Positions 15,689 to 24,562 of a stretch of 64,000 nt of DNA are shown piece after piece; positions within the stretch are counted from its first letter, which is position 1; the number at the start of each line of letters is the position of its first letter. The translations under genes and the position numbers were made by a program. The notes beneath the pieces were generated by a model. That model saw only the letters and a program-made list of their open reading frames with translations. It made no database searches and was not told the DNA's origin. The stretch covers positions 124,001 to 188,000 of the forward strand of contig NZ_JAJSEE010000003.1 of the NCBI RefSeq assembly GCF_023555375.1, given 5' to 3'. Origin of the DNA: Guyparkeria hydrothermalis (GTDB taxonomy: Bacteria; Pseudomonadota; Gammaproteobacteria; Halothiobacillales; Halothiobacillaceae).

Positions 15689-16300
15689 TCACACGCTCTC
15701 GGCTGGAATCGCAGCCTTGCTCGTGTGTTCCATGCGGCGCTTGTAAAGCGCCTTCTCGGCTTTCAGCAATCTCAACTGGAAGCGCTCGTCGGGCTCAACC
15801 CGGACGAGTGCCCTCGGTTGCCAGTCATCAGGCTTCCAGGACCAGTAGTGGTACTCCTCAGCCTCGGGGGTGATCATCATGCAATGCTGCATTCGAACCC
15901 AGTCTCTGATCGGGACTTTGCCTCGAATCGCCGCCTGATGGTCCGCATCACTCCCTGAGCCGAAGATCGCCACCGTCTCTCCGGTGATGTTGAGCGCCTC
16001 AAGTCGTGCACCAAGCCACTCTAGGCCACTTTGATTGGCCTGAACCGTTACCGGCGCGGCAAACTCTTCCACCTGATTCCGGTAGGAATCGAGCCTGTCG
16101 CCAACGCGCGATACGCAGTCAGTGTTACCAATCACTACGCTTTTTGCGTCCGGTTGGATGGGAAGGTCAATTCCCAACGCATCTCGGAAATCGGCGTCGT
16201 TTTCCAGGGCATCCAGGAGATCCCAGTCGGAAAACACCGATTGATGCCAGAACAGCCACTCGGCCGGGTTGCTTCCAACGTTCACAATGTCATAGGTCAT
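15689..16300 (-). CDS. Hypothetical protein
   Basis: 203 residues, family not recognised. It begins MTYDIVNVGSNPAEWLFWHQ and is acidic in the first half. A central GETVAIFGSGSDADHQAAIRG resembles a glycine-rich loop. The C-terminal third is rich in Trp, Arg and Lys (YHYWSWKPDDWQPRALVRV). A strong ribosome binding site (GAGGAAAG) precedes ATG at 16300, and it has its own terminator, so it is probably a real single-gene transcript. No signal peptide or membrane segment. Confidence 0.7.
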   Translation of the reverse strand: MTYDIVNVGSNPAEWLFWHQSVFSDWDLLDALENDADFRDALGIDLPIQPDAKSVVIGNTDCVSRVGDRLDSYRNQVEEFAAPVTVQANQSGLEWLGARLEALNITGETVAIFGSGSDADHQAAIRGKVPIRDWVRMQHCMMITPEAEEYHYWSWKPDDWQPRALVRVEPDERFQLRLLKAEKALYKRRMEHTSKAAIPAESV

Positions 16301-16387: not shown

Positions 16388-16420
16388 TATTGCAGGAAAG
16401 AAAAAACCCACCACATGCGG
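16388..16420 (-). repeat. Repeated terminator-like motif, copy 1
   Basis: On the minus strand CCCGCATGTGGTGGG followed by six T and CTTTCC, then GCAATA. The segment TGTGGTGGGTTTTTTC, CTTTCC and GCAATA are shared with copy 3 on the other strand. CCCGC can pair with GTGGG just before the U-run, so it could end leftward RNA. Confidence 0.55.
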
Positions 16421-16588: not shown

Positions 16589-16613
16589 GCAGGAAGGAAA
16601 AAACCCACACACG
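16589..16613 (-). repeat. Repeated terminator-like motif, copy 2 (diverged)
   Basis: GCAGGAAGGAAAAAACCCAC on the plus strand, a shorter variant of copy 1 about 200 bases away in the same orientation. Its stem is weaker. Confidence 0.4.
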
Positions 16614-17135: not shown

Positions 17136-17825
17136 TCATGACTGCTCTGCGCGAACCTTGAAGGTGCCCAGCCACGGGAGGTTTTCGGGGGGTGTGGCGG
17201 GCCACGGTTGGCCATTGCTGTGTTTCGACCACACGCGCCTGGCGCGGCGAAGCATCTTCGCAACTTGTGTCCGCACGCCGGAATGCATTGGCCGGCGCAG
17301 GAGTGACTGCTCGAGGTATGCCCTCATCCGTGACGGGTCCCGGCTACTCCCGGCCGCCTGAGCGAGCGAGGTCACGTAGTTCGCTTCCTGTTTCTCGATC
17401 TGGGGCGCAAGGCACCAGGTCCAGCGGCTGCCCCCTCCATGCTTGCGAGGGCGAGTCAGGTGCATCAACACGTAGTCCCCCCAGATGATCCGGTCTTTGT
17501 GCGCGTCCTGGAGTGTCTCTTGCTCCTTGACGGCGCCCTTGCCGGTTCTGGTTACCAAAAGAACCCATCGAATCTTTGTCTGTCCGGCCGCGTCTGGTGG
17601 TAGCTGAGCGCCGATTAGGCGTGACGAGCACCGGCCTTTCCGCTTTCGATGTTGCCGAGCTGCGGCTGAGATATCGATTTCGTACCGAGCGGAGAACTTC
17701 TCGACGAGGTGCCCCCACTTCTCGATAGGGACCTCGCCCGATACGTAGAGCGGGTTGGTGTGAACGGCCTTGGAGATGGCGCGCTGCGCTTCGACCTGAG
17801 ATGGATAAAGGGCTTTCATGCTCAT
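17136..17825 (-). CDS. Hypothetical basic protein
   Basis: 229 residues from ATG at 17825, not recognised. It starts MSMKALYPSQVEAQRAISKA. It is rich in Arg/Lys, with RWVLLVTRTGKGAVKEQETL and IIWGDYVLMHLTRPRKHGGG in the middle, and a C-terminal basic region ending VWSKHSNGQPWP... The basic charge fits nucleic-acid binding, which may matter beside the structured-RNA region immediately upstream on the other strand. Shorter (17819) and longer (TTG 17831) starts are possible. Confidence 0.6.
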   Translation of the reverse strand: MSMKALYPSQVEAQRAISKAVHTNPLYVSGEVPIEKWGHLVEKFSARYEIDISAAARQHRKRKGRCSSRLIGAQLPPDAAGQTKIRWVLLVTRTGKGAVKEQETLQDAHKDRIIWGDYVLMHLTRPRKHGGGSRWTWCLAPQIEKQEANYVTSLAQAAGSSRDPSRMRAYLEQSLLRRPMHSGVRTQVAKMLRRARRVWSKHSNGQPWPATPPENLPWLGTFKVRAEQS

Positions 17826-17932: not shown

Positions 17933-17961
17933 TTGTGGTGGGTTTTTTCTTTCCCGCAATA
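17933..17961 (+). repeat. Repeated terminator-like motif, copy 3
   Basis: TTGTGGTGGG, six T, CTTTCCCGCAATA on the plus strand, nearly identical to copy 1 on the opposite strand. It lies just upstream of the large structured RNA, so it could end upstream rightward RNA or mark the start of an RNA unit. Confidence 0.5.
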
Positions 17962-17969
17962 CTGTCGTG

Positions 17970-19064
17970 AAGGCCATCCCATGGCCAGGCGATCCGGCTC
18001 GGTACTCGGGGCGGATCGCATGACGATTTGGTGGGCACGGCTGCGTGATTGGCGGTCTCACCCATGTCGCCCCTCGGGGCGATATCGGGAGGCCGCCAAC
18101 CTCACGCCATGCCAAACAACACACCATGGGCTGAATAGCCCCAGGGGATCGCCAATCCCCAGGCCGAGGACTGCCAACCTCGGCCAGCGTCACTTCGCGC
18201 CCGTTACGGGTAATTCCGTTCGGCGGGTGCAAGGGAGGCTCCGGCGAGTAATCCCGCTCCCACGTGGAGCGGAGTAATCCGCCGGTTCTATCCCATCCCA
18301 CGGTCCGTCTCGGATCGAGTTGGGATGCTGGGTGACTCGGAAACGGACACGGGGAGGAAATGCCCCGTGATCCTGTCCCGGCAAAATCAGGTAACCAGTC
18401 CTGACCTGGGGGTGCGGGAAACCGCGCAACCAGTGCCACACACGTGGGCCGTCCACGCTGTCTGTGAGGACAGCGCCGGAATCACGCATCAAGTGCTGCG
18501 GGGATTCCGGTGTACCTGCCGGTGAGCCATGAGGGCAAAGCCGATGGGGCAGGCGGGAGCGTAAGCGTGTAACGGCACCGTTCGGGTGCTGTGTGGAGCT
18601 GTCAGAGCCGACTAGGGTAGCGACCTGCGATGTTTGCAAAGTCACACGGGCGTAAGCGAGCCGTTGTGGAGCATTGGGCCGCCGAAAACCGCAAGGATGT
18701 GCGGCGATGGTAACCGTGTGATGACGAGCAACTAGGCGCTGACAGAGTGATGCCGACGACTAACGAGGGAAAGGGCCGAGAGGGTCGGACGGGTGGCACC
18801 GTTCGGCACGGGAGTGACGATCCCGATAAGACCTCGACGCCTGGAGAGCGATCCGCCAGTAGGCAAAACCTCGATCTCGAAAGGATCGAGAGAGCCGGGC
18901 AATCCGCAACGGATTGGCCCGGCACTGTCAGGTGGCACTGACAGGCCGAAAGCGGGCGGTGACGTGAAGGTGTGTCTCCGGGATTGGCATCCCGTTGGCA
19001 TGTAGGCGTGCGCAGACAGGTGGAACTGTCTGCACATACAGTGTATCCGGCTTGGCCGCCGGAT
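17970..19064 (+). ncRNA. Candidate large ornate noncoding RNA (about 1.1 kb)
   Basis: No convincing ORF on either strand, but dense local stems throughout. Examples: GCGATCCG/CGGATCGC (17989, 18012), GGCCGAGG/CCTCGGCC (18162, 18178), CCGGAATC/GATTCCGG (18476, 18503), GCTGTC/GACAGC (18457, 18469), CTCGATC/GATCGAG closing a GAAA loop (18870-18890), GCCGGGC/GCCCGGC with inner AATCC/GGATT (18894-18923). CCGGCG/CGCCGG and CCGCTCC/GGAGCGG (18241-18285) enclose a symmetric internal loop with AGTAATC on both sides. CATCCCA/TGGGATG and GTCCGT/ACGGAC (18294-18348) interleave as a pseudoknot. GNRA loops appear only when the plus strand is read. Size and style recall giant RNAs such as GOLLD or ROOL; identity is unproven and the ends are approximate. 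Confidence 0.6.
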
Positions 19065-19089: not shown

Positions 19090-19173
19090 ATGACCAGAAG
19101 TAGGGCAGTCTTCGCGCCACGCAGTGGCTCGGCGGCTTGTTTCTTGAGACCGGCTCCAGGAGCCGAACGATGA
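19090..19173 (+). CDS. Short ORF (27 aa) directly after the large structured RNA
   Basis: Starts MTRSRAVFAPRSGSAACFLR and ends after 27 codons. It is basic (five Arg) with one Cys and no recognised family. It begins 26 bases past the last RNA hairpin (19045-19064), behind a perfect Shine-Dalgarno sequence. A terminator follows 30 bases past its stop, so RNA and ORF could share one transcript. It may be a leader peptide or a true micropeptide; codon statistics are too few to judge. Confidence 0.45.
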   Translation: MTRSRAVFAPRSGSAACFLRPAPGAER

Positions 19174-19201: not shown

Positions 19202-19235
19202 AAACCCACCTTGCCTTTGGCCTGGTGGGTTTTTC
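19202..19235 (+). terminator. Intrinsic terminator after the RNA/short-ORF unit
   Basis: AAACCCACC, 13 bases, GGTGGGTTT and further T. It closes the rightward unit that includes the structured RNA. Confidence 0.85.
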
Positions 19236-19786: not shown

Positions 19787-21668
<1,882 letters not shown>

Positions 21669-21741
21669 GCTTATTCCTTCACCGTGGCGGGCAAGCTCGT
21701 AAACAACTCACCCGATGACCGCGATGTGCAGCTGCTTGATG

Positions 21742-22005
21742 TCACTCAGGGGGCGTATTCCTTGATTTGATAGAGCCGTTGTCACAACAGGCGTCGAACT
21801 GCTTCTTACGCCAAATCGCATAAATGGTCAGGCCGATGAAGAAGGCCAGGGCCGGCAATAACACAACGTCGAGATAGCCCGTCAGCCCCGCCAGGCCCAC
21901 CGTGCCAAGCAGGATCACCAGGATCGGCGTAAAGCAGCACAATGCCACCAGGACGGTGCCGATCACGCTCACGCGCAGCAGGGGCTTGGGATTCTTCATG
22001 ATCAC
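21742..22005 (-). CDS. merF: MerF mercury transporter
   Basis: 87 residues: MIMKNPKPLLRVSVIGTVLV leads into VALCCFTPILVILLGTVGLAGL with the vicinal Cys pair, a second helix, and a cytoplasmic CC pair (QFDACCDNG). This two-pair layout is the classical MerF. Its start overlaps the end of merP (ATGA-type, 4 bases), so translation is coupled. Confidence 0.92.
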   Translation of the reverse strand: MIMKNPKPLLRVSVIGTVLVALCCFTPILVILLGTVGLAGLTGYLDVVLLPALAFFIGLTIYAIWRKKQFDACCDNGSIKSRNTPPE

Positions 22006-22298
22006 TCTCGATCCGCTTGCGAGGATGTCGGGGTTGATGGATACCCAGCGTTGATGGTGGCCTCGGTCAATGCCTCCACCGACGTTCGGGCGTCGTCAAA
22101 GGTGACCACGGCCTCCAGATCCGCGTAGCTCACGTCGACTTGCGAGACGCCGTCCACCTTGTTGAGGGCGGCCTTGACGGTGATCGGGCAGGCGGCACAG
22201 GTCATGCCCGGCACCGACAGCGTCACGGTCTGCAGGGCCGCTAAGGCGGGCGTGCTGAGCAGGGCGAGTAGCGCGATGAAGGCGAAACGAGCTTTCAT
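22002..22298 (-). CDS. merP: Periplasmic mercury-binding protein
   Basis: 98 residues with a signal peptide (MKARFAFIALLALLSTPALA) and a heavy-metal-associated domain with GMTCAACPITVKAAL. It binds Hg(II) in the periplasm and hands it to MerT. It lies 13 bases after merT and overlaps merF by four bases. Confidence 0.96.
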   Translation of the reverse strand: MKARFAFIALLALLSTPALAALQTVTLSVPGMTCAACPITVKAALNKVDGVSQVDVSYADLEAVVTFDDARTSVEALTEATINAGYPSTPTSSQADRE

Positions 22299-22311
22299 GG
22301 TAGATCTCCTT

Positions 22312-22662
22312 TTAATAGAACAGGGGCAAGATGTAGGGGAATACCAGGGCGATTAGCACCAGCAGCGATACGAGCCAGAAGATCGCCTTGTAGCCCGTCC
22401 TGACCCGTGGCACGGCACACACCTCTCCCGGCTGGCACTTTTCCACTGGCCGAAAGACGCGACGCCAGGCGAAGAACATCGCCACCAGCGCGACGCCGAT
22501 AAAGAGCGGGCGATAGGGCTCCAACGCCGCCAGATTGCTGATCCAGGCGCCGGAAACGCCCAGCGTGATCAGCACCAGCGGGCCGAGGCAACACGCCGAG
22601 GCCAGGAGGGCCGCGACTCCTCCGGCGGCCAGGGGCCCTCGCCCCGTTTTAGATGTCCGCAT
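22312..22662 (-). CDS. merT: Mercuric transport protein
   Basis: Inner-membrane Hg(II) importer of 116 residues, the usual length. Three hydrophobic segments, with a vicinal Cys pair in the first (LLASACCLGPLVLITLG) and a further pair in the loop (EKCQPGEVC). It is the first gene of the leftward structural operon, directly after the MerR-type promoter. Confidence 0.96.
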   Translation of the reverse strand: MRTSKTGRGPLAAGGVAALLASACCLGPLVLITLGVSGAWISNLAALEPYRPLFIGVALVAMFFAWRRVFRPVEKCQPGEVCAVPRVRTGYKAIFWLVSLLVLIALVFPYILPLFY

Positions 22663-22699
22663 TGACGATTCTCCTTTCGGGATGGGGGGAGCTACGATA

Positions 22700-22730
22700 A
22701 GGTTACTTCCGTAGCTTGGTACGGAGTCAA
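22700..22730 (-). promoter_or_regulatory. MerR-controlled mer promoter/operator
   Basis: On the minus strand -35 TTGACT and -10 TAACCT are separated by 19 bases, the over-long spacing that MerR corrects by DNA twisting. The spacer holds the dyad CCGTA-CCAAGC-TACGG. It lies between divergent merR and merT, as in classical mer operons. Confidence 0.92.
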
Positions 22731-22735
22731 GCATC

Positions 22736-23182
22736 ATGAAGAGACATGCAGATAAAGTGGCGGACACCATGACCATTGGCGGCCTGGCCAAGGCGGCCGG
22801 CGTCAATGTCGAGACAATCCGCTATTACCAGCGACGAGGGCTATTATCGGAGCCCGAACGCCCTCCCGGAGGTATTCGACGCTATAGTGCCGCCGATATC
22901 GACAGGTTGACGTTCGTGAAAACGGCGCAGCAGCTGGGCTTTAGTCTGGATGAGATCAGTGACCTACTTCGGCTGGAAGATGGCGCCCACTGTCAAGAAG
23001 CCAGTGCTCTCGCAGAGCACAAGTTAGGGGACGTTCGCGAGAAGATCGACAGGCTTGAAAGAATTGAGAAGGTGCTGAGCGAAATGGTCGACAGATGCCA
23101 TGCACAACAAGGCAATATCACTTGCCCGCTAATTGCGTCATTGCATGAAGGGCTCAGAGAAGCAGAAGACCCAAGGGAGTAA
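22736..23182 (+). CDS. merR: Mercury-responsive regulator MerR
   Basis: Dimeric repressor/activator of the mer operon, 148 residues. The winged helix-turn-helix ([25 protein letters not shown]) is followed by a dimer coiled coil. The three mercury-binding cysteines are present: [16 protein letters not shown] and NITCPLI. It is divergent from merT with the operator between them. ATG at 22736 gives a family-like N-terminus; ATG at 22766 is too close to the DNA-binding domain. Confidence 0.95.
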
Positions 23183-23260
23183 CTCACCTTCAGTTCGTTG
23201 AAAACAACGCGGTCAAAGAGTCGCGATCATCTATGGACCATGTCGACAAGGAAAGTTTGC

Positions 23261-24562
23261 ATGGCTAGCTTGCCTGACAACATCCTTCACCTTCCCGAGT
23301 ACCACGTCCTAGGCACCAAGATGGAAGAGCATGATCTCCACTACCAGGTCGAAGCTCCTGAGCCTCTAGCTTGCGAGGAATGCGGCGTTGAGAGTGAGTT
23401 TGTCAGGTTCGGCAAGCGCGATGTGGCCTATCGCGACCTACCCATCCACGGAAAGCGGGTCACCCTCTGGGTGGTCCGTCGCCGCTACACCTGCCGGGCG
23501 TGTGGAAGGACGTTCCGGCCAGCTCTTCCGGAAATGGTAGACGATCACCGCATGACGCGGAGGCTTTACAACCACGTCGAGAAGGAAGCCTTCAATCACC
23601 CCTACGCCTACGTGGCTGATACCACGGGCCTCGACGAGAAGACTGTCCGCGAGATATTCAAGAAGAAGGCTGAGTTCCTGGCAGCCTGGCATCGTTTCGA
23701 GACACCCCGCTGCCTGGGGATCGACGAGCTGTACCTGAACCGCCGCTACCGCTGCATCCTGACCAACCTGGAGGAGCGTACCCTACTGGACCTGCTGCCC
23801 GGTCGCCAGCAGGACGCGGTGACGAGGCGCCTCATGAGCATGACCGAGCGCCACCAGGTCGAGATCGTCAGCATGGATATGTGGAAACCCTACCGCCGTG
23901 CTGTCCAGGCGGTACTGCCGCAGGCTCGCATTGTGGTCGATAAGTTCCATGTGGTGCGGATGGCCAACGAAGCCCTGGAGAAGGTGCGTAAGGGACTCAG
24001 GAAGGATCTGAAGCCAAACCAGCGGCGGACCCTCAAGGGCGATAGGAAGATCCTGCTGAAGCGTGCCCACGACGTTTCAGATCGCGAGCGGCTTATCATG
24101 GAGACATGGACAGGGGCCTTCCCTCAGCTCCTGGCGGCCTACGAGCACAAGGAGCGGTTCTACCACATCTGGGACAGCACCACCCGGCGTGATGCCGAAA
24201 AGGCGCTGGCCCGCTGGATTGACGACATTCCACAGGGGCAGAAAGAGGTGTGGAAGGATCTCGTCAGCGCCGTCAGCGGATGGCGCGAGGAGGTGCTGGC
24301 CTACTTCGAAACCGACACCCCAATCACCAACGCCTTCACGGAGTCGATCAATCGGCTGGCCAAGGACAAGAACCGCGATGGCCGGGGCTACTCATTCGAG
24401 GTGATGCGGGCCCGGATGCTCTACACCACCAAGCACAAGAAGAAGGTGCCGCAGATCAAGGAATCCCCCTTCCTGGGCAAGGCCACCATGACCTACAGCA
24501 TGGGTCTTCCCGAGCCTGAGAAAAACTACGGCGTCGATCTATCAACCTTCTGGGAGAGTTAA
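23261..24562 (+). CDS. ISL3 family transposase
   Basis: 433 residues. An N-terminal zinc-finger region with paired cysteines (LACEECGVESEF and YTCRACGRTFRP) precedes a helix-turn-helix and a DDE catalytic domain containing CLGIDELYLNRRYRC (first Asp), VDKFHVVRMANEALEKVRKG (second) and NAFTESINRLAKDKNRDGRG (Glu region). ATG at 23261 follows AAGGAAAG; an earlier in-frame ATG at 23240 has no ribosome binding site. The stop is 49 bases from the right end of the transposon. Confidence 0.95.
   Translation: MASLPDNILHLPEYHVLGTKMEEHDLHYQVEAPEPLACEECGVESEFVRFGKRDVAYRDLPIHGKRVTLWVVRRRYTCRACGRTFRPALPEMVDDHRMTRRLYNHVEKEAFNHPYAYVADTTGLDEKTVREIFKKKAEFLAAWHRFETPRCLGIDELYLNRRYRCILTNLEERTLLDLLPGRQQDAVTRRLMSMTERHQVEIVSMDMWKPYRRAVQAVLPQARIVVDKFHVVRMANEALEKVRKGLRKDLKPNQRRTLKGDRKILLKRAHDVSDRERLIMETWTGAFPQLLAAYEHKERFYHIWDSTTRRDAEKALARWIDDIPQGQKEVWKDLVSAVSGWREEVLAYFETDTPITNAFTESINRLAKDKNRDGRGYSFEVMRARMLYTTKHKKKVPQIKESPFLGKATMTYSMGLPEPEKNYGVDLSTFWES

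Follow-up and report, generated by a model that had tools for sequence, protein, structure and literature searches.

What kind of molecule is encoded by the 1,095 nt at positions 17970-19064 of a 64-kb stretch of Guyparkeria hydrothermalis DNA (NZ_JAJSEE010000003.1; hereafter the window), where an original prediction placed a giant structured RNA of the GOLLD/ROOL type, or a new family of that kind? That classification is not borne out by our analysis, which points instead to a circularly permuted (CP) group II ribozyme, with the probability of this identity and of the associated splicing chemistry estimated at about 0.9. CP group II RNAs are a class of permuted self-splicing group II intron described in 2021, with members tested in vitro shown to form small circular RNAs (PMC8637638), and the RNA described here is a new, divergent member of this known class. 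RNA homology, the anatomy of domain 5 (D5), domain 6 (D6), the linker and the 5' splice site, covariation, linkage to the gene acpG, and the predicted fold of its product AcpG are directly supported below, and splicing by the window copy itself is expected by analogy with the tested members.

Folding and conservation of the RNA

The region folds far better than its dinucleotide shuffles (z of -9.7 for the plus strand and -8.5 for the minus strand); eight further tiles of the window, including one that shares sequence with the RNA, gave z values of +0.9 to -6.6. Together with the homologues and compensatory changes described below, these values uphold the claim of a structured RNA of ~1.1 kb, and its description as a large plus-strand RNA on a mobile element is likewise supported. 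The accompanying statement that the region holds no plausible open reading frame (ORF) stands in part; ORFs are present (e.g. 176 aa on the minus strand and 114 aa on the plus strand), however the conservation sits in RNA stems and loops.

One other species among 11 genomes of the genus carries the RNA, at a different locus, with 95% identity over 1,049 nt, compared with only 85% and 57% identity for the neighbouring proteins shared by the two loci. That this noncoding stretch is better conserved than the genes adjacent to it strongly supports a real and functional structured RNA. The first ~60 nt of the RNA differ between the two close copies. DNA searches yielded nothing beyond this congeneric homologue, with BLASTN against plasmids and phages giving no match, and a match in G014 proving to be a 26-nt chance match. 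In both congeneric loci the acpG-RNA module is accompanied by a 203-aa protein without a known family (15689-16300 on the minus strand of the window; 57% identity).

Distribution of the family

Wider relatives were reached through the protein. An acpG-family protein occurs in 9-10 of 369 sampled gammaproteobacterial genomes and, depending on which of two queries is used, in 11 or 23 plasmid records, and nhmmer searches upstream of these proteins recovered RNA relatives with E-values down to 5e-22, sharing the near-universal signature TTGGGCGACNCGGAMACGG. Among the matches listed from a scan of 84,980 species genomes for this signature, most loci were confirmed by a core profile, with a clear gap to chance matches; the confirmed members include at least many Proteobacteria, together with one Verrucomicrobiaceae and one Oscillospiraceae assembly. 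In 53 of the 58 loci whose upstream sequence suffices for scoring, a divergent acpG lies within the 2 kb that precede the RNA signature, and in the window the acpG ORF ends 482 nt before the signature. Exact 16-17-mer scans of IMG/VR with the window copy gave no match, and the 21 viral matches obtained with the family signature score below 14 bits with the core profile and are due to chance, leaving no evidence of the RNA in viruses from these scans.

The family RNA profile recovers the locus on plasmid pPNAP05 (E 2e-72), a plasmid for which expression of a CP group II RNA has been demonstrated (PMC8637638), with the AcpG profile finding both the pPNAP05 counterpart (E 3e-54) and the TTHC007 locus of pTT8 (E 5e-18). 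Beyond homology, the window copy shares with the published class the order D5-D6-linker-D1, a bulged A within D6, the splice-site signals AY and GYGAC, a length of about 0.9-1.1 kb, the lack of an internal ORF, a divergent acpG, and an association with plasmids and mobile elements. It differs in having a CGC rather than an AGC triad, in a D6 extended by a symmetric AGUAAUC internal loop, and in lying close to mercury-resistance genes in a chromosomal island that contains an integrase.

Anatomy of the ribozyme

The features of the locus are collected in Table 1, with counts for D5 and D6 referring to 70 homologues, 65 of which were parsed.

Table 1. Features of the CP group II RNA locus in window coordinates.
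Feature	Position	Strand	Evidence and remarks
acpG	17139-17825	-	Transcribed away from the RNA; basic protein of about 230 aa (net charge +21)
5' hairpins, several GCCAA-containing loops	18044-18183	+	Fold; GCCAA motifs conserved in homologues
D5	18198-18229	+	CGC triad, 8-bp lower stem, UC bulge, 4-bp upper stem, GUAAUU loop
D6	18233-18296	+	Bulged branch-point A18290; 3' splice site after CAU (18296); holds the symmetric AGUAAUC internal loop
Linker	18297-18331	+	35 nt, separating the two splice sites; predicted to be released as a circular RNA
5' splice site and D1 start (GUGACUCGGAAACGG), family signature	18332-18346	+	Signature scans
Putative D1-D4 equivalents	18332-19060	+	Conserved blocks, e.g. 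18658-18690 and 18757-18772 (CUAACGAGGGAAAGG); profile over 70 homologues
Intrinsic-terminator-like hairpin with T-run	19204-19234	+	Hairpin kept in the close homologue

D5 reads CGCCCGUU ACGG GUAAUU CCGU UC GGCGGGUG, that is, a triad, five pairs, a 2-nt bulge, an upper stem and a loop, and thus contains the catalytic triad, the bulge five pairs from it and the GNRA-like loop that define this domain, as a CGC variant. The layout was parsed in 65 of the 70 homologues and in none of 70 shuffled controls. Across 32 distinct D5 sequences, 98.7% of cells are paired and compensatory changes occur at nine of the 12 pairs, with a covariation score well above its controls (0.691 compared with 0.196 shuffled and at most 0.113 when slid, with both sides changed in 91 cells; 0/500). 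The sequences were chosen by a parser that rewards pairing, which biases these D5 figures towards structure; however, the shuffled control and the clear conservation around D5 argue against this bias as the cause of the result. G.U pairs far outnumber A.C mismatches (119 and two cells respectively), which favours the plus-strand RNA as the functional molecule. The CGC triad is present in 11 of the 65 parsed members, including the window copy, with a compensating G as its partner base. CGC triads also occur in canonical group IIC introns.

The bulged A of D6 is present in all 65 parsed members, with all five flanking pairs formed in 64 of them and the single-sequence fold in agreement. The symmetric AGTAATC/AGTAATC loop described in the original prediction is real and lies inside this domain. 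In the family the 3' splice site reads A[U/C] and the 5' splice site GYGAC, the latter in 65/65 parsed members (GUGAC at 18332 in the window), with linkers of 15-80 nt (median 23) between them. Of the two helices proposed to interleave here as a pseudoknot, CATCCCA/TGGGATG (18294-18300/18321-18327) is retained in the 95% homologue and corresponds to a linker stem in the wider family, whereas GTCCGT/ACGGAC is not conserved, with the close homologue having ATCCGG opposite an unchanged ACGGAC; an alternative local hairpin is compatible with both copies.

D5 and D6 therefore lie 5' of D1, with reversed splice sites separated by a short linker. A canonical group II intron, with domains in the order D1-D6, terminal splice sites and a reverse transcriptase (RT) in D4, was considered and rejected, as the 5' splice-site motif comes after D5 and D6 and no RT ORF lies inside the RNA. 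D1-D4 and the special pseudoknots of the class would lie 3' of the linker, where the conservation profile over the 70 homologues shows conserved blocks up to about 19060. The hairpins upstream of D5 probably correspond to P1/P2 of CP group II RNA, and the terminator-like hairpin is likely the end of the transcript. Between the RNA and this hairpin lies a 27-codon ORF (MTRSRAVFAPRSGSAACFLRPAPGAER; 19090-19173, plus strand) with a strong AGGAGG site, which has a different C-terminus in the close homologue.

No Rfam 15 family matches the RNA at its gathering score, with GOLLD and ROOL absent at that score from the window and from 20 relatives, so that the Rfam check put forward with the original prediction would, by itself, have made the RNA look new; Rfam 15 accordingly holds no model that detects this widespread class in the sequences searched. 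A clear intron match had been named as evidence against a GOLLD/ROOL-like RNA, and such a match was found in modified form, that of a permuted group II ribozyme. A non-catalytic giant ornate RNA acting as a cage or scaffold would account for the similar size, the mobile-element setting and the heavy structure, all of which GOLLD and ROOL share with the window RNA, however these RNAs have another architecture and no AcpG, and the absence of an Rfam match at E up to 5, the permuted D5/D6 with its bulged A, and the homology to the pPNAP05 locus make this explanation barely credible.

Three observations weigh against assignment to the CP group II class. The pTT8 RNA is found by the family RNA profile at the right place with a marginal E-value (0.19), the window copy is divergent, with CGC in place of AGC, and searches of the window region relaxed to E up to 5 returned no intron family, nor GOLLD/ROOL or any other large-RNA family. 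The divergence, the CGC triad, and the differing first ~60 nt of the two close copies might also indicate a decayed copy in which splicing has been lost. Such decay is improbable, given a conservation of 95% that exceeds that of adjacent coding genes, D5/D6 pairs that are intact and covarying, and the recurrence of CGC with its compensating G.

Proposed splicing mechanism

By analogy with the members studied in vitro, the transcript would fold such that D5 and D6, from their permuted 5' position, join the downstream D1-D3 to complete an active site. The bulged A18290 would then use its 2'-OH to attack the 5' splice site before G18332, and the freed 3' end of the linker would attack the 3' splice site after U18296, with a small RNA circle (18297-18331) and a T-shaped branched RNA as the predicted products. 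The neighbouring acpG most likely provides a protein helper that would bind the RNA and stabilise its active fold. That the splicing products serve the mobile elements carrying the pair, in their spread or maintenance, is our best guess at their use, though one that we consider doubtful.

Compared with the canonical bacterial group II intron ribonucleoprotein (PDB 6me0, 8t2r), the system has the D5/D6 catalytic elements and a partner protein predicted to contain palm and thumb in common, and differs in its permuted domain order and in splice sites internal to the RNA. The window protein, of about 230 aa, is encoded divergently outside the RNA and lacks YxDD, so that mobility by its own reverse transcription is not expected.

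AcpG as a candidate maturase

AcpG was reported in 2021 without detectable homology to any known protein class, its discoverers noting that a CP group II RNA without any protein helper would be surprising (PMC8637638). On the profile matches given above, the divergent upstream gene of the window is assigned to AcpG. AlphaFold (AF2) gave confident models both for the window protein (predicted local distance difference test, pLDDT, 91) and for a relative from Sedimenticola (pLDDT 96), with the VIA search of the window model placing a group II intron RT (8t2r) first (Z 9.0, 181 residues aligned). The Sedimenticola model matches 6me0 (Z 8.9), 8t2r (8.8), 8fli (8.5) and 6ar1 (8.2), followed by G2L4; rows 1-7 and 9 of its results are all RTs of the group II lineage (Z 7.2-8.9), with Prp8 following in row 10 (Z 7.0, 197 residues aligned). 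The RT-like fold suggested by these models is a new structural lead; in the titles and abstracts of open-access PMC papers on circularly permuted group II introns, AcpG is studied only in PMC8637638, and the fold may be described elsewhere.

The likeness to the RT-like/thumb region of Prp8 (PDB 4i43) is a weak fold resemblance, seen for one of the two AcpG models, and Prp8 is a far larger protein than AcpG. Prp8 itself lacks polymerase activity, and its RT-like fold cradles an active site resembling that of group II introns. The 44 AcpGs compared are strongly basic (mean net charge +16) and have no conserved YxDD motif, so that AcpG is not an active RT, which is compatible with a maturase role. 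We somewhat favour the view that AcpG binds the RNA as a stand-alone maturase, catalytically dead and with a palm and thumb RT fold. The fuller proposal, in which AcpG would supply the maturase that CP group II ribozymes have been missing, as a minimal polymerase-dead RT fold that parallels Prp8 in bacteria, is encoded apart from the RNA and serves RNA-only copies in trans, such as those of the 3-kb E. coli plasmids, appears to us evenly poised.

In favour of a maturase, the best Foldseek match of the Sedimenticola model is again 8t2r (probability 0.77, template modelling score 0.45, E 0.2), and the classical maturase domain PF08388 was absent from a search of the host genome. Several results count against it. 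VIA Z values of ~9 exceed only slightly what the tool reports for models that lack a clear match, Foldseek E-values are weak (above 0.1), and Foldseek returned nothing useful for the window model. An hhalign comparison of the AcpG profile with six group II RTs detected no relation (probability 0.2%), which leaves the maturase role inferred from fold similarity and linkage. Some RNA copies lack AcpG, showing that it is not needed in cis everywhere. No convincing match to AcpG came from Pfam, NCBIfam, PADLOC, PHROGs or PDB sequences.

AcpG may instead have another role in mobile elements, in replication, transfer or regulation, with its palm-like fold arising by chance. The lack of sequence similarity to RTs, the RNAs without AcpG, the position of acpG beside type IV secretion system (T4SS) genes on E. 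coli and Gluconacetobacter plasmids, and weak BFVD matches that include Rep proteins give this explanation a somewhat less than even prospect. Set against it are the two independent models that rank group II RTs first, the second also listing Prp8, the strong positive charge, and the close, divergent association with a group II ribozyme. An HUH relaxase was also rejected, because the conserved columns lack a conserved histidine pair.

Few large ribozymes occur in nature, CP group II RNAs being among them, and the predicted RT-like fold opens a direct test of what AcpG does, for which E. coli plasmids with and without acpG offer a convenient laboratory system. If the maturase proposal is correct, AcpG would be a natural example of a maturase that is minimal in size, lacks polymerase activity and works on a group II active site, and could help to explain how proteins derived from RTs turned into splicing factors such as Prp8.

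RNA-only plasmids of E. coli

In E. coli, the acpG-RNA pair is found on plasmids of about 30 kb with T4SS genes in 15 of 5,426 genomes, and seven records of plasmids of about 3 kb carry the RNA core. Three of these seven were read (L174, L175 and L176; 2.9-3.1 kb) and contain an RNA core of 719-730 nt and a RepL gene, with no AcpG; their cores are about 95-96% identical to the copy on the larger plasmids (L170, L177), and strain FHI_NMBU_11 carries both kinds. This suggests that the RNA can be served in trans or works without AcpG.

The same small plasmids, with an RNA locus ~96% identical to that of the 30-kb T4SS plasmids, would also suit a DNA element acting in cis, similar to an origin of transfer, and not through RNA. 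However, the strong preference for G.U over A.C in D5, the group II active-site anatomy, the expression of the pPNAP05 RNA (PMC8637638), and the position of the minimal origin of pMtBL (OriR, 1918-2759) outside the RNA make a DNA element very improbable. A plasmid replicon was likewise rejected, with the pMtBL OriR lying elsewhere and deletion data for pTT8 cited in PMC8637638.

On two plasmids acpG directly adjoins a VirB11/CpaF-type ATPase and other T4SS genes (L170, 16701-20407; L173, 4983-6831), both plasmids being typed as non-mobilizable (no known relaxase).

Surroundings of the locus

The locus had been described as a tRNA-Phe island. The tRNA-Phe gene is indeed followed by a tyrosine integrase, however a search for a tRNA-Phe repeat marking the right end found none within the window. 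Directly downstream of the RNA lies a mercury-resistance-like cluster (19787-24562) with a MerA-like reductase, small transporters and a MerR-type regulator, followed by an ISL3-family-like transposase; these names come from reading the translations, with the MerR-type regulator alone checked with Pfam. A repeated GTGGGTTTTTTCTTTCC module is found in several copies around the P0002 and acpG genes and on the 5' side of the RNA, at 16392-16411 and 16589-16608 on the plus strand and at 17942-17961 on the complement.
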